Part shown: positions 1 to 43,139 of the stretch, piece by piece
Layout: every line of letters begins with the position of its first letter
Numbering within the stretch: the first letter of the stretch is position 1
Origin: a virus
Strand: one strand, 5' to 3'
Length of the DNA stretch: 43,139 nucleotides
Virus record (IMG/VR): IMGVR_UViG_3300044970_000973
Span: 1 to 43,139 of that record
Program-made: the position numbers and the translations under genes
The notes under the pieces: model-generated
Databases searched by the model: none
What the model saw: the letters and a program-made list of their open reading frames with translations, nothing else
What the model was told of the DNA's origin: nothing

Positions 1-9
1 CGGCTGCTG

Positions 10-1320
10 ATGTCCCCCATCCGGCCCACCATCCTGGTGCCACGCGCCGGGGGGTTTGGCCTTGGCGACAGGCTCTGGGATCTGGCAGGTGTCGCCCCAA
101 GCCTGGATCAGCGGTTTGCCGAGAGCCGGAGCCTGATTGATGCGGTAAGTGGCCAGCAGCTGATCACATTTACGAGGGCTAGTGACGGAACGTTTGTCGG
201 CAGCAACGGGCTGATACAGACGGCGGGCACGAACGTGCCGAGGTTTGACCATAACCCGCTGACGGGCGAGAGCCTGGGGCTGCTGGTGGAGGAGCAAAGG
301 ACAAACAGCATCCGCAACAACACGATGGCGGGTGCGGTGGCGGGAAGCCCCGGAACAGCTCCGACTAATTGGATAGCAAGCACAACTGCGGCTGGAGTCT
401 CTCGTGAAATTATCGGCACTGGCACTGAAAATGGCATAACCTACATTGATATAAAAGTAAGCGGCACTACAACGTCTTCGCTTTTCTTTGTCATTCGATT
501 TGAAGGGGCGCAGGTCGTAGCAGCAGCCAATGGTCAGACATGGACGACTAGCTCATATATCAAGGTAGTTGGAGGCTCGCTTGCAAACTTATTGCTAAGG
601 TTTGGGATAAACGGAAACGATTCTACCGGCTCGGGCGTCCAGTTTCCAACAAACTCTACGATAAGCCCAACAGGTGCATCGCTAATTTCGCAACGTTTTG
701 CAAACACTGGCACCTTTTCAAATGCAAGTGTTGCCTTTGTGCAGAACTACTTGCAAATCGAAGCCGCTTCAGGCGTCGCCATAGACATCACCCTCCGCAT
801 CGGCCTACCCCAGCTAGAGCAGGGCGCCTTTGCTACCAGCGTGATCCCGACATCTACTACAGCAGTTACCCGCAGTGCCAGTGTTGCTGATGTAATCAAC
901 CAAGCTATCGCTAACAATATCCGCACGCTGTATCTGGAGTTCCGATCTCCTGCTAGCGGCACGAGAGGTGTTGTCAGTTTGAACGACAACACAGCCAATG
1001 AAAGGGTCAACATGCTCACCAGCGGCACAGACCCACGGCTGGTGGTTGTGGATGGCGGCGTAGAGCAAGCCAATATCAACGGCGGCACCATTACTGCAAA
1101 CACTCGGACTCGTGTTGCAGTGCGAATCAATGAGAACGACTTTGCGATCAGTATCAACGGTGCCGCCGTGGTGACTGACACCAGCGGCACGCTGCCGACT
1201 GTCGATCGGCTGATGCTGGGCCGGACGCAGGCTGGTGAGTACCTGAACGGAGCACTGGCCCGAGTGACTGGGTGGCGTGAGGCGCTGCCTAACTCGACGC
1301 TGCAGACCTTGGCTGGCTGA
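10..1320 (+). CDS. Spike/fibre-like adhesin (alternative cassette)
   Basis: 436 aa, probably a virion surface protein that binds the host cell. The N-terminal part (about residues 45-100) carries the pattern ITFTRASDGTFVG ... GLIQTAG ... PRFDHNP ... GESLGLLVEEQRTN, typical of phage head-spike/fibre modules. The middle (about 105-275) looks like a carbohydrate-binding beta-sandwich, and the C-terminal part (about 300-430) like a LamG/concanavalin-type domain. The ATG overlaps the TGA of a preceding gene cut off by the window edge. The stretch at about 360-760 is visibly richer in A+T than its flanks, which suggests a recombined module. It lies two genes upstream of TerL, where the other end of the window has a different fibre gene. 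Family assignment is by motif recognition; receptor unknown. Confidence 0.75.
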   Translation: MSPIRPTILVPRAGGFGLGDRLWDLAGVAPSLDQRFAESRSLIDAVSGQQLITFTRASDGTFVGSNGLIQTAGTNVPRFDHNPLTGESLGLLVEEQRTNSIRNNTMAGAVAGSPGTAPTNWIASTTAAGVSREIIGTGTENGITYIDIKVSGTTTSSLFFVIRFEGAQVVAAANGQTWTTSSYIKVVGGSLANLLLRFGINGNDSTGSGVQFPTNSTISPTGASLISQRFANTGTFSNASVAFVQNYLQIEAASGVAIDITLRIGLPQLEQGAFATSVIPTSTTAVTRSASVADVINQAIANNIRTLYLEFRSPASGTRGVVSLNDNTANERVNMLTSGTDPRLVVVDGGVEQANINGGTITANTRTRVAVRINENDFAISINGAAVVTDTSGTLPTVDRLMLGRTQAGEYLNGALARVTGWREALPNSTLQTLAG

Positions 1321-1658: not shown

Positions 1659-1852
1659 ACCCCTACCTTCGCGCTGCTGCCCGCAACGAGGCGCTCAGGC
1701 TGCAGGCGCTGGAGAAGCTGCAGGCCCGGCAGGCAGAAGAGACGGATGAAGCTATCTACGAACGGGCCCGTAACGACCTGGGCCAGTACGCAGGTGATGA
1801 TCCCTCCACGCCGGACGTCAACGAGGCGTGGGTGGAGGTTGAGCAGTCCTGA
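1655..1852 (+). CDS. Small protein before TerL (short version)
   Basis: 65 aa. It starts at an ATG overlapping the previous stop and ends in a TGA that overlaps the TerL ATG (TGATG). The first 45 residues are an alanine-, arginine- and glutamate-rich helix. The last 19 residues, GDDPSTPDVNEAWVEVEQS, are the same as the end of the 173-aa protein at 42506-43027 except for one Val/Ile change. The N-terminal parts are unrelated. The shared tail suggests either a functional peptide or sequence kept by recombination at the TerL border. It is not TerS, which is at 40879-41121. Function unknown. Confidence 0.75.
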   Translation: MNPYLRAAARNEALRLQALEKLQARQAEETDEAIYERARNDLGQYAGDDPSTPDVNEAWVEVEQS

Positions 1853-1964
1853 TGGCCAGGCAGCTGGCAACCTGGCAGCCACTGCCTGAGCCCTACAGCA
1901 CCGACTTCCGCTACTTCCTGGTCATCGTCTGGCGCCACCTGGGCCTGCCGGACCCCACGCCTAT
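1838..1964 (+). repeat. 127-bp direct repeat, copy 1
   Basis: This stretch (end of the 65-aa gene and first 113 bases of TerL) is identical to the last 127 bases of the window. The base before it differs (G at 1837, A at 43012). Homology continues upstream with scattered mismatches for a few tens of bases, then ends. An exact 127-base overlap at a contig end fits a de Bruijn assembler using k=127. Confidence 0.9.
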
Positions 1965-3585
1965 CCAGCTGGACATCGCTGAGTACATGCAGCACGGTCC
2001 CAAGCGGCGGATCGTCGAGGCATTCCGGGGTGTCGGCAAGTCATGGATGGCCGCGGCCTACGTCCTCTGGCTGCTGCGCAACGATCCCCAGAAGAAGATC
2101 ATGGTGAATTCCGCCTCTGGGGCGGAGGCCAAGAACTTCACGACTTTCTGCCTGCAGCTGATTCGGGACATGCCGATGCTGCAGTGCTTGGAGCCAAGGC
2201 GGGAAGATCAGCGATCTGCTGTCAATGCGTTCGACGTCAGCTACGCCAAGCCGGACAAGAGCCCATCGGTCAAGTCGGTGGGTATCTTCGGTCAGATCAC
2301 CGGCTCCCGTGCGGACCTGATCATTCCCGACGACATTGAGACACCCACCACGTCGTGGTCTGTGGGTATGCGGGAGAAGCTGCTTGCTGCAGTCGGTGAG
2401 TACAACGCCATTCTCAAGCCTGGCGGGGAGGTGATGTACCTCGGCACACCCCAGACAGAGGAGTCGATCTACAACAAGCTGCAGCTGCGGGGCTTTACCA
2501 CCCGCATTTGGCCTGCCAGGTACCCCGACAAGCCGGAAAAGTACGGAGACTCCCTGGCCCCGGTGATTTTGGAGGGCGGGAAAGGGCTGATTGGGAAGCC
2601 GACAGACCCCGATCGCTTCTCTGAGCTGGATCTGCTGGAGCGGGAGACGTCCTACGGCCGCTCTGCCTTCGCCCTGCAGTTCCAGTTGGACACGTCCCTG
2701 TCGGACATGGAGCGGTTTCCGCTTCGCCTCTCCGACCTGATGGTGCTGGAGGTGTCGGACCACGCCCCCGAGAAGCTGGTGTGGTCCATGGGAGCCGAGT
2801 ACCGCATCACCGACCTGCCGGTGGTGGGTTTCTCCGGCGACTACTACCACCGCCCGGCCTTTGTTCACGGTGACTGGCTGCCGTTTCAGGGCTGCGTCAT
2901 GTTCATCGACCCGTCCGGCCGCGGCCAGGACGAGACGGCCTACGCCATCGTGGCGCACCTGAACGGCAACCTGTTTGTGCTGGAGGTTGGCGCCTTCCGC
3001 AATGGCTACACCGACGAGGTGCTGGTTGGCATGGCCCAGGCCGCCAAGCGGCGGAAGGTCAACCTGATCCTGCTGGAGGACCAGTTTGGCCAGGGGATGC
3101 TGGAGAACCTGCTGAAGCCGCATCTGCAGCTGCACCACCCCTGCACCATCGAGCCGGTGCGGTCGAACGTGCAGAAGGAACGGCGGATGATCAGCGCACT
3201 GGAGCCGGTGATGAACCAGCACCGGCTGATCATCAACCGCTCCGTCGTCGAAAACGACTCCAAGGGGCGGGATGACGAGGCGATCGAGAAGCGGCTGGCG
3301 TACCAGCTGTTCCACCAGCTCACTCACGTCACCGTCGACAAGGGCTGCCTGCAGCACGACGACCGCCTCGACGCCCTGGCCGGCGCCGTGCAGTACTGGA
3401 ACGAGTCGCTGGCGATCGACGAGGACCGTGCCATGAAAGAACGTAAAGCCGAGCTGTGGGATCTTGAGCTGGAAGCTTTCATGGGGAACATTGACGGTGC
3501 AGTCGATGCTCAGTTTCTTGGGTTCAGCCTTGCGGAGCTTCCGAAGAAAGATGGCGGATCCTGGATCACCACAGCTCGCTCCTAA
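1852..3585 (+). CDS. terL: Terminase large subunit (TerL, T7 gp19-like)
   Basis: 577 aa, the DNA-packaging motor and nuclease that cuts concatemers and pumps DNA through the portal. The ATPase Walker A is at about 58-65 (FRGVGKSW). A Walker B-like acidic stretch follows at about 154-163 (ADLIIPDDIE). The RNase H-like nuclease domain begins at about 350 with FIDPSGRGQDETAYAI, and a later HDDRLDALAGA supplies further acidic residues. Length agrees with T7 gp19. The ATG overlaps the stop of the preceding small gene. It is on the plus strand, opposite to the virion genes, and separated from TerS (when the circle is closed) by an adhesin cassette, whereas in T7 the two are close and co-directional with the virion genes. 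Confidence 0.96.
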   Translation: MARQLATWQPLPEPYSTDFRYFLVIVWRHLGLPDPTPIQLDIAEYMQHGPKRRIVEAFRGVGKSWMAAAYVLWLLRNDPQKKIMVNSASGAEAKNFTTFCLQLIRDMPMLQCLEPRREDQRSAVNAFDVSYAKPDKSPSVKSVGIFGQITGSRADLIIPDDIETPTTSWSVGMREKLLAAVGEYNAILKPGGEVMYLGTPQTEESIYNKLQLRGFTTRIWPARYPDKPEKYGDSLAPVILEGGKGLIGKPTDPDRFSELDLLERETSYGRSAFALQFQLDTSLSDMERFPLRLSDLMVLEVSDHAPEKLVWSMGAEYRITDLPVVGFSGDYYHRPAFVHGDWLPFQGCVMFIDPSGRGQDETAYAIVAHLNGNLFVLEVGAFRNGYTDEVLVGMAQAAKRRKVNLILLEDQFGQGMLENLLKPHLQLHHPCTIEPVRSNVQKERRMISALEPVMNQHRLIINRSVVENDSKGRDDEAIEKRLAYQLFHQLTHVTVDKGCLQHDDRLDALAGAVQYWNESLAIDEDRAMKERKAELWDLELEAFMGNIDGAVDAQFLGFSLAELPKKDGGSWITTARS

Positions 3586-4879: not shown

Positions 4880-5434
4880 CTACGGCCGGATCCAGGTTGC
4901 GCTGAAGTATTCGCCCAGGACGTTCTGCGGGGCGCCCTGCGAATGCAGGACAAATGCCTCCACGTAGTCGGTCGTGCCGTTCAGGTAGATCAGATCGGAG
5001 GTGACGCTTCTGGCGTACAGCGTTGTGTCAAGGGCAGCGCCTTGTGAGTACGGCGCACCGTTCTTGGCAATGGCACAGCCAAACAAGGCCGCCGCAGTCA
5101 CTCCCTGATACTGCACTGAGGCGTTGACCAGGTAGTAACCGGCGACTGTGGGAGTGAAGCGGTTGGAGGCGTAGCAGATGGCGGTGTCAAACTCCTCCGC
5201 GCCAAATGTCACCTTGGTCCAGATGGCGCTGGCTGCCGCAAGTGGCACCCCTTGAGGCGCCCGAAACGCTGGCCCGCCGGCCGTCTTGTCCGGCGTCGCC
5301 GCTGCGGGCTGCAGCTCGCTGGTGCCCACCGATGCGGGAGCCATCTGCGTTGCGGTGATCGTGTCGTTCTGCAGCCGGCTGCCCGGGATACTTGCTGCGT
5401 TGACGCTGTTCGCCAGGTCTCTCGCTTTGGTCAT
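4880..5434 (-). CDS. C1q-like fibre/adhesin protein
   Basis: 184 aa. The first 50 residues (MTKARDLANSVNAASIPGSRLQNDTIT) resemble the helical attachment stalk found in many cyanophage minor tail proteins. From about residue 57 to the end, FRAPQGVPLAAASAIWTK, GAEEFDT and FTPTVAGYYLVNASVQYQG form the beta-strand pattern of a C1q/TNF-like jelly roll, a trimeric receptor-binding fold used in phage fibres. It follows two other surface proteins on the same transcript, so it is likely a receptor-binding or decoration protein. The fold is inferred from the pattern, not from a search. Confidence 0.72.
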   Translation of the reverse strand: MTKARDLANSVNAASIPGSRLQNDTITATQMAPASVGTSELQPAAATPDKTAGGPAFRAPQGVPLAAASAIWTKVTFGAEEFDTAICYASNRFTPTVAGYYLVNASVQYQGVTAAALFGCAIAKNGAPYSQGAALDTTLYARSVTSDLIYLNGTTDYVEAFVLHSQGAPQNVLGEYFSATWIRP

Positions 5435-34195: not shown

Positions 34196-34207
34196 ATCAA
34201 TGGCTTA
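34196..34207. repeat. 12-bp direct repeat right of attP
   Basis: Second copy of ATCAATGGCTTA, three bases after the tRNA CCA; its last three bases are the integrase stop codon read from the other strand. See the copy at 34105-34116. Confidence 0.7.
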
Positions 34208-35290
34208 GCGGTGCGCCATCACTGGCTCGGCAACAAATGTTGCGGACTTCGCAACAGGTTGCAGAGCGGGGACGACGGTCCCTTGCAGGACACGAATCGC
34301 ATCCTTCAGTTCGCGGCTGGAGAGGTGGGCGTACTTCTCCGTCACCTGAATGGAGCTGTGCCCAAGGATCTTCTGCACCACGTACAGGCTGACGCCTGAC
34401 TGCACCAGCCTGGTTGCGCAGGTGTGGCGCAGGGCATGGGGTACGAACTGGTCGTCGTCATCCAGACCCATGGCTGAGCGGGCCCGGTCCCAGTAGTAGC
34501 GCAGGGTTTCACGGGTCAGGTTGTAGAACACCAGCCCCCGGCTGGCAGCGCACCGGCCGGCGATGATCTCCCGCACCCGCTGCGTCATGGGCACCGACCT
34601 GGGCAGGTCCCCTTTGTTCTGCCAGATGCTGATGATGTTCTCGCGCAGGTCGATGTCCTTGACCTCCAGGTGCAGCAGCTCACCGACCCTCATGCCGGTG
34701 TCGACCAGGACGGTGATCGCCTCCAGCACAGCCGGCTGGTTCCACTGGATCATGAGCTGAGCCAGCAGCTGCTCCTCGTCAGGCGACAGGTACCTGATGC
34801 GGTGCGTGGGTTCAGGTAGGCGGATCATGCGTGGCCGCTTGGCCACACCACCCCGCTCCTCAGCGTCGGTGAACATGGCCGACAGGCTGGCCAGCTTCCG
34901 GTTCATGGTGCCGGCGCTGTTCCCCTTCTTGCGCAGGTGCTTGATGTACTCGTCGATGGCGTCCTTGTCGATCGAGTCCAGGTCCCGGGCCTTGCCGAAG
35001 AATGCGACTGCATCACGGGCGTTCCGTGCTGCCTTGGTCTCGTTCTTGGTGCCCTGCCACCGCACCTCCAGTGTCTTCTCGTACGCCTGCTGGATGGTCC
35101 AGCTGTTGGGTGTGGCCGCAGCCTCCCGCTTGATCACGGCACCACGCAGCTCAGCTTCCAGCTGCAGCCGGCCAATCACTGCCTCCTCGTAGCTCTTGTA
35201 GGTAGCGGTGCGCCGCTCCCCTTGGACGGTGACGTCGACCAGGTAGCTGCCGCCACGCTGGCGTATCCCGTCTCTGGTTTTCCCTTTCAT
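34205..35290 (-). CDS. int: Tyrosine-type site-specific integrase
   Basis: 361 aa from ATG 35290 (MKGKTRDGIRQRGGSY), preceded by GAGGAAACC; upstream codons lack a better start. Residues 1-50 form the arm-binding type domain, about 65-150 the SAM-like core-binding domain, and the rest the catalytic domain with R201 (TGMRVGEL), H285/R288 (HALRH), His in LGHSS (about 312) and nucleophile Y320 (EKYAHLS). All catalytic residues are present, so it should be active. Its 3' end abuts the attP core, which implies integration in a tRNA-Met gene. Expressed with the early minus-strand genes. Confidence 0.95.
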   Translation of the reverse strand: MKGKTRDGIRQRGGSYLVDVTVQGERRTATYKSYEEAVIGRLQLEAELRGAVIKREAAATPNSWTIQQAYEKTLEVRWQGTKNETKAARNARDAVAFFGKARDLDSIDKDAIDEYIKHLRKKGNSAGTMNRKLASLSAMFTDAEERGGVAKRPRMIRLPEPTHRIRYLSPDEEQLLAQLMIQWNQPAVLEAITVLVDTGMRVGELLHLEVKDIDLRENIISIWQNKGDLPRSVPMTQRVREIIAGRCAASRGLVFYNLTRETLRYYWDRARSAMGLDDDDQFVPHALRHTCATRLVQSGVSLYVVQKILGHSSIQVTEKYAHLSSRELKDAIRVLQGTVVPALQPVAKSATFVAEPVMAHR

Positions 35291-35328
35291 GGTTTCCTCG
35301 GTGGTGGTGGGTGTGCAATAGAGAATGA

Positions 35329-35343
35329 TTTGTCTAGTACAAA
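35329..35343. promoter_or_regulatory. Palindrome upstream of the integrase
   Basis: TTTGT-CTAGT-ACAAA, a 5-bp inverted repeat about 40 bases before the integrase start in an unusually A+T-rich spot of this genome. It could be an operator or part of a host-type promoter. No repressor gene is recognised, so this is a candidate only. Confidence 0.3.
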
Positions 35344-35380
35344 TGCTTAGCAATAGGCATAAGGTGACACAGGGTTTCCC

Positions 35381-39583: not shown

Positions 39584-39736
39584 TCAGAGCAGCTGCAGGA
39601 CAGCCGCCAGCCCCAGAAGGGCCAACAGCACGGTCTGCCGCTGCTCCAGCTCGCGGATACGGTCGGCCTGGTAGTCGGCCAGCTCGCACGCCGCGGTCAG
39701 CACCTCCGCCTTGGAGGTGCGCTCAGTGATCTGCAT
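39584..39736 (-). CDS. First early gene: small membrane protein
   Basis: 50 aa from ATG 39736: MQITERTSKAEVLTAACELADY, a charged helix, then a C-terminal hydrophobic helix TVLLALLGLAAVLQLL. A tail-anchored membrane protein by appearance. It is the first gene of the minus-strand unit and its leader has ACCCACCACAGAAA, shared with the RNA polymerase leader. Confidence 0.7.
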   Translation of the reverse strand: MQITERTSKAEVLTAACELADYQADRIRELEQRQTVLLALLGLAAVLQLL

Positions 39737-39797
39737 TTGTCCAGTTTCTGTGGTGGGTCGGCAGCGGATCTCCCCCCTGCCTGATCCCATCCTAGCA

Positions 39798-39809
39798 ACT
39801 ACCGGTAGT
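39798..39809. promoter_or_regulatory. 12-bp perfect palindrome near early genes
   Basis: ACTACCGGTAGT. On the minus strand it is followed directly by TGCTAGGAT, which resembles an extended -10 element, so it could be an operator over a host-type promoter for the early genes (start at 39736). Confidence 0.35.
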
Positions 39810-39919
39810 GGCGTGCCATAGGTCGACCGTGCCCGCCGGTGCCCCACCGTTTCCATCCCCAGGTGAACTGAAGTAGCGGGTGAGTAGCTGGGGCGGTTCA
39901 CACCGTAGAGACGCGGGAA

Positions 39920-39934
39920 TGAGAACCATTCTCA
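39920..39934. promoter_or_regulatory. Fur-box-like inverted repeat
   Basis: TGAGAAC-C-ATTCTCA, a 7-1-7 inverted repeat with six of seven pairs. It matches the general Fur 7-1-7 box TGATAATNATTATCA at all but three positions, and the variant TGAGAATNATTCTCA at all but one. It lies about 185 bases upstream of the first early gene. Binding by host Fur is inference. Confidence 0.35.
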
Positions 39935-39984
39935 AAGCAGGCGACCCAGGGTGCCCGCCCTGCGGGCCCAGCCCTGGCCTGGCT

Positions 39985-40007
39985 GCAGGGGATCTGCAGT
40001 CCCCTGC
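39985..40007. other. 8-bp hairpin in control region
   Basis: GCAGGGGA - TCTGCAG - TCCCCTGC, eight paired bases with a seven-base loop and no T-run on either side. Not a standard terminator. Confidence 0.45.
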
Positions 40008-40032
40008 TCTCCCTGCCCCTGCAAGGGCTTAC

Positions 40033-40058
40033 GGGCTGGTGTTGCGGGCTGGTGTTGC
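40033..40058 (+). repeat. Two 13-bp tandem repeats
   Basis: GGGCTGGTGTTGC twice in a row, immediately followed by AGGCACC. Short direct repeats (iterons) of this kind can be protein-binding sites. Confidence 0.6.
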
Positions 40059-40134
40059 AGGCACCCCCTCCCCCCTGCCTCTCAGGCCCGGCAGCAGGCC
40101 CCCCAGGAGGGGGGAACGACGCGCCGCAGTAGGC

Positions 40135-40162
40135 GTAATAGCCCCTCACATTTTCGGACCAA
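40135..40162 (-). promoter_or_regulatory. Candidate host-type promoter for early genes
   Basis: Minus strand TTGGTC - 16 bases - TATTAC, downstream of a TTTTTT tract. It points at the early operon about 400 bases away. Match to sigma-70 consensus is partial. Confidence 0.3.
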
Positions 40163-40207
40163 AAAAGTGAACCGCGGTTGTACAGAGTTGAGTTGTAGGG
40201 GATGTGT

Positions 40208-40235
40208 CCCCCGAGGTGCGATAGCACCTTGGGGG
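40208..40235. other. Long perfect stem-loop
   Basis: CCCCCGAGGTGC - GATA - GCACCTTGGGGG: twelve pairs with a single G·T and a four-base loop. It directly abuts the G-quadruplex tract. No T-run follows on the plus strand, so it is more likely a structural or binding element than a simple terminator. Confidence 0.6.
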
Positions 40236-40260
40236 TAAGGGGGAGAGGGGGAGAGGGGGG
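40231..40260 (+). other. G-quadruplex-forming tract
   Basis: Runs of 5, 5, 5 and 6 G (40231-35, 40239-43, 40247-51, 40255-60) separated by TAA, AGA and AGA: a strong four-run G-quadruplex motif with three-base loops. The minus strand is a pure pyrimidine tract apart from one A. Confidence 0.65.
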
Positions 40261-40290
40261 AGGAGGCTGCTAGGGGGGGCTGTGGAGACC

Positions 40291-40319
40291 TTGGACGCCC
40301 TAATTCACCTTTATTCAAT
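40291..40319 (+). promoter_or_regulatory. Candidate host-type promoter for the plus unit
   Basis: TTGGAC - 17 bases - TTCAAT in the most A+T-rich part of the control region, pointing at the winged-helix/TerS unit. Partial consensus match only. Confidence 0.3.
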
Positions 40320-40451
40320 AATGGGTGCGACTGGGTTTTCGGGACGAGAACACTGGGATCTGGGCCTGTGTCGTCCACGAAGTCATTAAGAAAGTCGCAT
40401 AGCAAAATGAACCAGGGGGCCTAGTGTTCTTTAAGGTGGTGCGGACCCGCA

Positions 40452-40784
40452 GTGAACCAGGCCATGTTGACGTTGAACCAGGGAGGGGTGGCCGCTTTGG
40501 CGGCTGCGATTGGCAGGAGGGAGCTGCAGCCGAGGGACGGAGCGGTGTACCTGGCGCTGCTGTCGTTCATGAACCCGATCACCTGTCGGGTGGACGTCCG
40601 CGCCAGGGTGGTTGCTGAGCGGGTGGGGATGATGGAGAAGCACGTCATCAGCTCCATCAGCCGGCTGTGCAAGGCTCACCACGTCGCCAGGCAGCGAGGC
40701 CCTGGGGGCGATCCGGTGCTGGTCCTGAATCCCTGGGTCGGCCCCCAAGGCCATCACTCCCTCGTTGCGGAAGACGTCGACTGA
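40452..40784 (+). CDS. Winged-helix DNA-binding protein
   Basis: 110 aa from GTG 40452; an in-frame ATG at 40464 (MLTLNQGGVAALAAAIGRR) may be the real start. ALLSFMNPITCRVDVRARVVAERVGMMEKHVISSISRLCKAHHV (in part) has the order helix, helix-turn-helix, recognition helix, and GGDPVLVLNPW forms the wing. It resembles winged-helix replication/MarR-like proteins found in cyanopodoviruses. It is the first plus-strand gene, just beside the control region, so it may bind there as regulator or replication initiator. That role is inference. Confidence 0.72.
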   Translation: MNQAMLTLNQGGVAALAAAIGRRELQPRDGAVYLALLSFMNPITCRVDVRARVVAERVGMMEKHVISSISRLCKAHHVARQRGPGGDPVLVLNPWVGPQGHHSLVAEDVD

Positions 40785-40824
40785 CGGGCTATGGTGTGTG
40801 CGGTGCCTGTGGTGGGTGCTGCAA

Positions 40825-40858
40825 GGGGGAGAAGGACAGACCACGGGCTTTCTCCCCC
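40825..40858 (+). other. Inverted repeat before TerS
   Basis: GGGGGAGAA and TTCTCCCCC, nine pairs with a 16-base loop, in the 94-bp gap between the winged-helix gene and TerS. After it come CGCCCCTTTTG and the TerS ribosome site. It may be a partial terminator or an mRNA structure that controls TerS. Confidence 0.5.
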
Positions 40859-40878
40859 GCCCCTTTTGGGAGGGATCT

Positions 40879-41121
40879 ATGGCCAAAGCGAAAGACACCA
40901 ACGAGCTGCTGTCGAACCTGCACGCCGGCCTGGCCCAACATCTGCACGACCGGCTGAGTGATGGGGACATCACAGCTGGTGAGCTGAACATCCTCCGCCA
41001 GTTCCTGAAGGACAACCAGATCAGCGCACAGCCTGTTGAAGGGACGCCCTTTGGGGAGCTGGTGTCGGCCTTGCCTGACCTCGATAAGGTGGTGCAGATG
41101 AAGCCACGCAGGGCCGCCTAG
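40879..41121 (+). CDS. terS: Terminase small subunit (TerS, T7 gp18-like)
   Basis: 80 aa from ATG 40879, with GGAGGG five bases upstream; the frame is open to 40765 without a better start. NELLSNLHAGLAQHLHDRLSDGDITAGELNILRQFLKDNQISAQP (in part) follows the T7 gp18 pattern: helix, then G-x-[IV]-T-x-x-E-L, then FLKDN. It recognises phage DNA and hands it to TerL. In the closed circle TerL starts 1.9 kb downstream, after an adhesin cassette, instead of directly or nearly so. Confidence 0.88.
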   Translation: MAKAKDTNELLSNLHAGLAQHLHDRLSDGDITAGELNILRQFLKDNQISAQPVEGTPFGELVSALPDLDKVVQMKPRRAA

Positions 41122-41123
41122 CT

Positions 41124-41336
41124 ATGCCCACTTTCGTCACCGGCCCTAATGATGGCCCCGTGCAAGTCACGGATGGGTTGCAGGTCCCAGCGCACGACTA
41201 CATCGCCTTCAGCTATACCGGCAGCAACCTGACGGGTGTCGTCTATCGCCGCGGCGGAGTCAGTGGAACTATTGTCGCCACACTCACCCTGGCCTACGAC
41301 GGCAGCAACAACCTGATCTCCGTTGCCAAGAGTTGA
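41124..41336 (+). CDS. Small structural-type protein of the fibre cassette
   Basis: 70 aa: MPTFVTGPNDGPVQVTDGLQ, HDYIAFSYTGSNLTGVVYRRGG, TLTLAYDGSNNLISVAKS. An all-beta protein; near-identical short proteins are found beside tail fibre genes of cyanophages as I recall. Probably a minor virion protein. It starts two bases after the TerS stop. Confidence 0.72.
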   Translation: MPTFVTGPNDGPVQVTDGLQVPAHDYIAFSYTGSNLTGVVYRRGGVSGTIVATLTLAYDGSNNLISVAKS

Positions 41337-41339
41337 GCA

Positions 41340-42506
41340 ATGCCGCTTCAGTTCAACCCATTCACCGGCAACCTTGACTTCGCGGGCGGAGATGCCGTTG
41401 CTGTCGCCCTGAACCTTCGGGGCACTGTCGCCAACCAGGCTGCGCTGCCCAGCTCCGGCAATGTCATCGGGCACGTCTGGCAGGCGATCGACACCCGGGT
41501 CTTCTACGCCTGGGATGGATCGGCCTGGGACAACCTCGGCACCCTTGCCGGCCCTGCCGGCCCTGCCGGCCCCGGCACCGATCTGAGCTACACCGCGGCG
41601 ACTCGCCTGCTGGAGTCCAGCTCCGGCGGCGATGTCACCCTGCCGCTTTTCGCCTCGGGCGCTGCCGGCTTGACGCCCGCATCTGGCGGCGGCACCGGCA
41701 ACTTCCTGCGTGCTGACGGCAACTGGGCTGCGCCGCCAGCCGGCGGCGGTAGCACGCCCACCGACCTGAGCTACAACCCGGCGACTCGCCTGCTGGAGTC
41801 TTCAACGGGCAATGATGTCACCCTGCCGCTCGTCGCCTCAGGGGCCGCTGGCCTGGCCCCCGCATCCGGGGGTGGCACCAGCAACTTCCTGCGGGCTGAC
41901 GGCACCTGGGCCGCGCCAGCTGGGGGTGGTGGGGGTGGCTTGCCTGGCCAGGAATACGCAGCTGGCTTTTGGCTGTCTCCGCTGAACGGCACGGTCGGTA
42001 GCGCCGCGGCGATGGTGGCAAACACCATCTACCTGTATCCGTTCACGCTGGAGCGTTCTGTGACCGTTGGCGAGCTTGGCGCCCGCGTAAACACCGCAGC
42101 AGCAGGAACTTCAGTCCAGCTGGCCATTTACGGGACGACGAATGGAGAGCCCATCGGCGCACCCTTGGGCAACACTGTCAGCTTGTCGGCAGGCACCCAG
42201 GGCCTTGTCTCCGACAACGTGGCCGACTTCAACCTCACGGGGCATGTCACCTACTGGATGGCATCGAATAGCGATGGCACCCCGGCCCTGCAGCATCTGT
42301 CCGGCGCCGCTGTCAACGCCGCTGCTGCGATTCTCGGTGCCCCCACCTTGGCGCAAGTGGCTTCGGCTGCTTCGGCATCTGGCGGATGGCGCTCTGTCGC
42401 CCAGACATTTGGCACATGGCCCACGCTCGCCGCAGGTGCTACCACAGTGCAAACCGGCGCCGTCCGTGGCGGCATTGTTTACCTGCAGCTTGCTGCGCTC
42501 CTGTAA
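41340..42506 (+). CDS. Collagen-like tail fibre/adhesin
   Basis: 388 aa. It begins MPLQFNPFTGNLDFAGG, a common cyanophage fibre start, followed by a GHVWQAIDTRVFYAWDGSAW (47-65) binding-type segment, a short collagen-like GPAGPAGPG (about 73-81) and two copies of a 61-residue repeat starting DLSY..ATRLLESS and ending NFLRADG.WAAP (from nt 41580 and 41763). After a glycine run the C-terminal about 190 residues form a beta-sandwich (YPFTLERSVTVGELGARVNT) that probably binds the receptor. It is unrelated to the 436-aa adhesin that occupies the equivalent place at the other end of the window. Its stop overlaps the next ATG. Confidence 0.8.
   Translation: MPLQFNPFTGNLDFAGGDAVAVALNLRGTVANQAALPSSGNVIGHVWQAIDTRVFYAWDGSAWDNLGTLAGPAGPAGPGTDLSYTAATRLLESSSGGDVTLPLFASGAAGLTPASGGGTGNFLRADGNWAAPPAGGGSTPTDLSYNPATRLLESSTGNDVTLPLVASGAAGLAPASGGGTSNFLRADGTWAAPAGGGGGGLPGQEYAAGFWLSPLNGTVGSAAAMVANTIYLYPFTLERSVTVGELGARVNTAAAGTSVQLAIYGTTNGEPIGAPLGNTVSLSAGTQGLVSDNVADFNLTGHVTYWMASNSDGTPALQHLSGAAVNAAAAILGAPTLAQVASAASASGGWRSVAQTFGTWPTLAAGATTVQTGAVRGGIVYLQLAALL
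41580..41925 (+). repeat. Two tandem 61-codon repeats in the fibre gene
   Basis: Units start at 41580 and 41763 (offset 183 bases). Each encodes DLSY-x2-ATRLLESS ... DVTLPL-x-ASGAAGL-x-PASGGGT-x-NFLRADG-x-WAAP. Just before them is GGCCCTGCC repeated three times (collagen-like GPA). Both can expand or contract by recombination. Confidence 0.75.
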
Positions 42507-43027
42507 TGGGCATCGCCTACTCCCCGGAAGGCATTGCGATCAGTGACGACCGCAACCCCAGTCGCCCCCCGCTGTTGCTGCCGGCCACAGCCACCCAGGC
42601 GGAGATCGACTCGGCGGCACTGGAGTATCTGCAGCCTGAGCCAGAGCCCGACTACGACGGCTTCGGCTTGTGGCTGCTGACCACCCCCGAAATCCTGGCG
42701 GCCTATGACGCCGCATTCGCGGGCAACAAGCTCACCGCGGGGACGCTCCCATCGGCTGTGCTGGCTGCCGCCGGAGGCGAGCCGAAGCACCTGCGCACCA
42801 CGCTGCTGCTGCTGCACGGCCAGGGCCTGCTGGGGCAGGAGACCATCGGGTCGATGCTGACCAAGGCCCAAGAGTGCAGCCTGCCGCCTGAGTTCTTGCA
42901 GGCGATGCAGTGCGACGCTCCTGCGCCTCGACTGGTCCGCGCCCGCGACGAGGAGGGTCAGTACGAGGGTGACGATCCCTCCACGCCGGACATCAACGAG
43001 GCGTGGGTGGAAGTTGAGCAGTCCTGA
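42506..43027 (+). CDS. Protein before TerL (long version)
   Basis: 173 aa from an ATG overlapping the fibre stop (TAATG). MGIAYSPEGIAISDDRNPS, LLLPATATQAEIDSAALEYLQP (in part), then a helical middle (LLTTPEILAAYDAAFAGNKL, LLLLHGQGLLGQETIG) and a C-terminus GDDPSTPDINEAWVEVEQS. The end matches the 65-aa protein at 1655-1852 apart from Ile/Val; the rest does not. It may be a fibre partner or chaperone; function unknown. Its stop overlaps a second copy of the TerL start that is cut off by the window end. Confidence 0.72.
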   Translation: MGIAYSPEGIAISDDRNPSRPPLLLPATATQAEIDSAALEYLQPEPEPDYDGFGLWLLTTPEILAAYDAAFAGNKLTAGTLPSAVLAAAGGEPKHLRTTLLLLHGQGLLGQETIGSMLTKAQECSLPPEFLQAMQCDAPAPRLVRARDEEGQYEGDDPSTPDINEAWVEVEQS

Positions 43028-43139
43028 TGGCCAGGCAGCTGGCAACCTGGCAGCCACTGCCTGAGCCCTACAGCACCGACTTCCGCTACTTCCTGGTCAT
43101 CGTCTGGCGCCACCTGGGCCTGCCGGACCCCACGCCTAT
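43013..43139 (+). repeat. 127-bp direct repeat, copy 2 (partial TerL)
   Basis: Identical to 1838-1964. It contains the end of the 173-aa gene and the first 37 codons of TerL, truncated by the window edge. Best read as the same locus reached twice round a circular assembly path, not as a second TerL gene. Confidence 0.9.

Follow-up and report, generated by a model that had tools for sequence, protein, structure and literature searches.

Genes at the terminase locus

We analysed the full length of IMGVR_UViG_3300044970_000973, a linear virus record in IMG/VR (43,139 bp) that is referred to below as the window. All genes at its terminase locus lie on the plus strand. The sole complete large terminase gene, terL (1852-3585; 577 amino acids), matches phrog_38 (E 6e-108) and the T7 terminase RNaseH-like domain PF22530, and the small terminase gene, terS (40879-41121; 80 amino acids), matches PF11123 (E 2e-15) and phrog_891. 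Two different cassettes of tail-type genes each lead into a terL start. The first, branch A (1-1837), is truncated at its 5' end and comprises a tail-type fibre gene (1-1320; phrog_5939 tail protein, E 3e-46), a 111-aa ORF (1323-1658; phrog_18574) that has homologues in relatives and recurs beside A-type fibres, and a 65-aa ORF (1655-1852). The structure predicted for the fibre of this branch was of low quality (mean pLDDT 44) and supports no statement about its fold.

The second cassette, branch B (41127-43012), comprises a 70-aa ORF (41124-41336; phrog_26903) whose N-terminal module recurs in other cassettes, a 388-aa fibre-like protein (41340-42506; phrog_3904 tail fiber, E 1e-8) and a 173-aa ORF (42506-43027). 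The fibre gene of this branch carries a near-tandem internal duplication of 159 bp (41576-41734 and 41759-41917; 82%). The window then ends within a 5' fragment of terL (43027-43139; 37 codons), which is not a second gene.

In addition to the T7-type TerL and TerS, the backbone encodes a single-subunit RNA polymerase, primase/helicase, exonuclease and SSB, together with portal, scaffold, capsid, tail tube and internal virion proteins, a tail fibre, an endolysin and an integrase-family protein. DNA polymerase A (PF00476) was not found in the window by a search that detected its positive controls. Among isolates, the P-SCSP1 phages are nearest (TerL 74% and primase/helicase 59% identical). The MPP-C cyanopodovirus clade, that is, the Prochlorococcus phage P-SCSP1 group, is defined by the lack of DNA pol (PMC9860041). 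The window phage resembles this group in gene order, in a terS-terL pair convergent to the rest of the genome, and in that no family A DNA polymerase was found. Judged by these single-gene identities and by its gene order, the phage is T7-like and related to the P-SCSP1 (MPP-C) cyanopodoviruses.

The window phage differs from the isolate P-SCSP1h in its high GC content (about 64%), in the tail-type cassette between terS and terL, which P-SCSP1h is without, and in an integrase-family gene (34205-35353, in an otherwise T7-like phage) that is not annotated in P-SCSP1h. No prophage with a close TerL was present in the scanned bacterial and archaeal genomes, which thus gave neither a host nor an integrated copy. 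In P-SCSP1h, a 104-aa 'hypothetical protein' (ULF49772.1; positions 706-1020 of our locus L084) just upstream of terL resembles TerS in sequence and position and is not annotated so.

The 127-bp repeat and the joins into terL

The last 127 bases of the window (43013-43139) are identical to positions 1838-1964 (127/127), and the preceding base differs, being A at 43012 and G at 1837. This recomputation agrees with a first-pass annotation of the sequence, which had also described the repeat as an internal TerL segment. That description holds for 113 bp (1852-1964, the first 113 bp of terL), but the other 14 bp (1838-1851) precede terL and form the end of the upstream ORF. The two copies, neither of which is assigned a strand, form the single pair of repeats of at least 31 bp in the window and account for every repeated 31-mer; the window holds neither an inverted copy of the 127 bp nor any inverted repeats of at least 31 bp. 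An exact repeat of this length cannot have arisen by chance. Suffix/prefix repeats of at least 20 bp were found in 0 of 87 other loci, some of which stop short of their contig ends, and thus such repeats are not usual in the group.

Immediately to the left of the repeat, positions 1763-1837 and 42938-43012 (the right edge of branch B) match imperfectly, with 12 differences in 75 bp, which indicates that branches A and B are homologous in this stretch. Leftward of it the two branches are wholly unrelated. The matching stretches encode a C-terminal motif of 20-25 amino acids, GDDPSTPDxNEAWVEVEQS with V or I at the variable position (1790-1849 and 42965-43024), in which the otherwise different 65-aa and 173-aa ORFs end. 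The same motif also occurs in small hypothetical proteins of the unrelated Synechococcus phage S-CBWM1 and Roseobacter phages CRP-603 and CRP-2.

Two other contigs bear directly on how each branch is connected. An exact 57-mer from the repeat was matched in one other viral contig, L083 (IMGVR_UViG_3300044612_002380), which equals window positions 39592-43139 without mismatch and then continues with 1965-2221, giving 100% identity over 3,805 bp in all. Because L083 is identical across the 43139/1965 join, branch B leads directly into an intact terL, which backs the proposal in the first-pass annotation that the sequence closes at this point into a circle of 41,175 bp. At about position 2670 of L083, roughly 50 bp (window 2222-2271) are missing inside terL and the frame is shifted, by either a real defect or an assembly error, and hence L083 is an imperfect witness beyond position 2221. 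Past this deletion it is 99.96% identical to the window up to about position 4939.

The second contig, L003 (IMGVR_UViG_3300045999_006012), is ~98% identical to the window over the part of the backbone that it covers, and has the gene order terS, 108-aa ORF, A-type fibre (1217-2551 of L003), 111-aa ORF, 65-aa ORF and terL, each present once. A 70-mer spanning the junction of branch A with terL matches L003 exactly, as do window positions 1-215 and 1506-1864, and the two sequences differ strongly over most of the fibre, including its C-terminus. Because L003 carries an A-type cassette alone between terS and terL, the window evidently joins in series two cassettes that are alternatives at one site, with branch A belonging between terS and terL of a sister variant. 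This agrees with the earlier suggestion that 1-1837 is an alternative upstream branch.

The truncation of branch A can also be read from L003, since the L003 fibre start codon begins 3 bp before the base that corresponds to window position 1, which lies ~335 bp past the terS stop. The identity of the first 215 bp places the window start in a stretch shared exactly with the sister variant, as would be expected of a second graph break. An exact 60-mer from the variable part of branch A had no match in any other viral contig, and therefore the upstream link of this branch to terS is known only via L003. Both variants have the terS region itself in common (383 bp with 6 mismatches), and their similarity ends 5 bp past the terS stop codon. 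The first-pass annotation had set 40879-43012 against 1-1837; since terS is common to both variants, the opposing branch instead begins at 41127.

A probable assembly path through two variants

In a de Bruijn graph, neighbouring edges share a vertex of length k. A JGI assembly paper (PMC10434106) lists metaSPAdes with -k 33,55,77,99,127 and describes it as the assembler that JGI uses as standard for metagenomes, in accord with the earlier remark that 127 is the usual largest k of SPAdes-type assemblers. A series ending at k=127 explains the length of the repeat, and the source record was presumably assembled in this way, as is usual for the collection. The 127-bp repeat itself is an assembly artefact and not a biological feature: it is a junction k-mer of the assembly graph, repeated at the contig end.

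We consider it very probable that the record is an assembler path of the form A-V-M-B-V, in which a genome of 41,175 bp is joined to a piece of a sister variant that carries a different tail-gene cassette. In this notation V would be the 127-mer at the start of terL and M the shared backbone from 1965 to about 41126; A and B would be the alternative cassettes, each of which runs into V. The path would have entered through the variant A fragment, made one round of a circularly permuted or concatemeric genome, arrived through B and ended where V recurred. The true genome would then be the self-closing 41,175 bp from 1838 to 43012, which holds terS, cassette B and terL once each, and positions 1-1837 would derive from the sister variant, which has cassette A in the corresponding position. 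The last base of A would have been tied to the full 127-mer by reads of 128 bases or longer. The continuation of the A variant beyond 1964 would rest on path resolution, and the sequence there may be that of the B strain.

We infer this graph history from the repeat and from the two joins found in the independent contigs L083 and L003, which also agree with the earlier proposal of two population variants of one phage. Both variants probably coexist in the sample from which the window derives, and their cassettes were probably exchanged by homologous recombination in the conserved terS and terL flanks.

The order of the window, taken as written, could instead describe one real genome of ~43 kb or more in which the two cassettes lie in tandem and terL, or a fragment of it, follows each as the result of a gene duplication. 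However, L083 and L003 each hold just one cassette, between one copy of terS and one of terL, and the supposed duplicate stops at exactly 127 bp with nothing beyond. A single terL is present in 15 of 16 long related records, several of the longest of which measure 38-40 kb. These single-copy relatives lead us to reject a tandem duplication or second TerL, which we regard as highly improbable. As the first-pass annotation had cautioned, the record is neither a 43-kb genome nor a carrier of two packaging genes. Two different TerL genes, with 82% and 45% identity to that of the window, are present in a record of 58,560 bp (L037), which may be a composite of two phages.

Even less probable is a programmed switch (phase variation) between the cassettes within one phage lineage, in place of two standing variants. 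Both cassettes fit the same flanks and the window codes for the integrase-family protein described above, but the window lacks inverted repeats of at least 31 bp, and no silent second cassette is present in L083 or in the part of L003 that was read. Moreover, the mosaic divergence of the flanks is typical of recombination between lineages, and across many relatives neither the size nor the content of the terS-terL interval is constant.

T7-like phages carry direct terminal repeats, and the T7-type TerL and RNA polymerase of this phage would suit a real short repeat marking the physical ends of a linear genome; we nevertheless reject this reading as having almost no probability, because one copy lies 1,837 bp inside the window so that the repeat is not at both ends, L083 runs unbroken across the supposed right end at 43139, such an end would cut through the terL coding sequence, and the deposited ends of P-SCSP1h, which has the same gene order, lie upstream of terS and not in terL. 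The junction is thus one of assembly and not a biological terminus, as had been proposed.

The assembly path favoured here resembles the contig-end overlaps of length k known from SPAdes and from metaSPAdes with k=127, in that the overlap exactly equals the largest k and vanishes when the path is closed. It differs in that the contig end joins an internal position, which makes a tailed loop, since the junction is preceded by a variant branch. Our literature search for 127-bp circular overlaps found no paper. Circularity checks that compare one contig end with the other miss loops that close on an internal position, and some 'linear' virus records may therefore be closable genomes. Users of the present record should treat it as a genome of 41,175 bp with a 1.8-kb piece of a variant attached, since its genome size, gene counts, circularity and completeness will otherwise be wrong.

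The terS-terL interval in related phages

A by-product of this analysis is that the gap between terS and terL (within 40879-43027 and 1-1852 of the window) stands out in this phage group as a place where adhesin-like genes vary. We measured the gap in 60 related contigs that carry both genes: 23 have no insert (5 bp or less), 22 contain 310-756 bp, and the remaining 15 hold a long insert of 1.4-4.1 kb. Many inserts encode tail-type proteins, and the modules that recur in the long ones are A-type fibres of phrog_5939 with their 111-aa neighbour, other tail or structural families, and the N-terminal module of the branch B 70-aa ORF. When the three gap states were mapped onto a quick TerL tree, 16 changes were needed, and well-supported branches force at least 7 for the long-cassette state. 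This distribution fits repeated gain, loss and exchange at the terS-terL site. Judging from their family names, the cassette proteins may bind hosts.

Metaviromic islands in marine phages hold many genes for tail fibres and other recognition functions and differ between co-occurring phages that are otherwise nearly identical; terminase genes are also listed among their contents (PMC3909814). The present site is alike in that tail or adhesin genes at a fixed position differ between close relatives. In contrast to those islands, the block here lies exactly between terS and terL in relatives of T7-like cyanophages, and it was seen by comparison of contigs and not by read recruitment. On the basis of sequence comparison, the cassette site resembles the known phage host-recognition islands and would constitute a modest new example of them.

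We lean slightly towards a broader proposal: in a widespread group of uncultured phages related to the MPP-C cyanophages, exchangeable cassettes for host recognition would dock preferentially in the terS-terL gap. These cassettes would be swapped en bloc by recombination in the conserved terminase flanks, so that co-occurring, near-identical phages would differ mainly in their accessory adhesins. Relatives that can be named for a variable terS-terL interval are our loci L035, L047, L056, L062, L073, L029 and L041.
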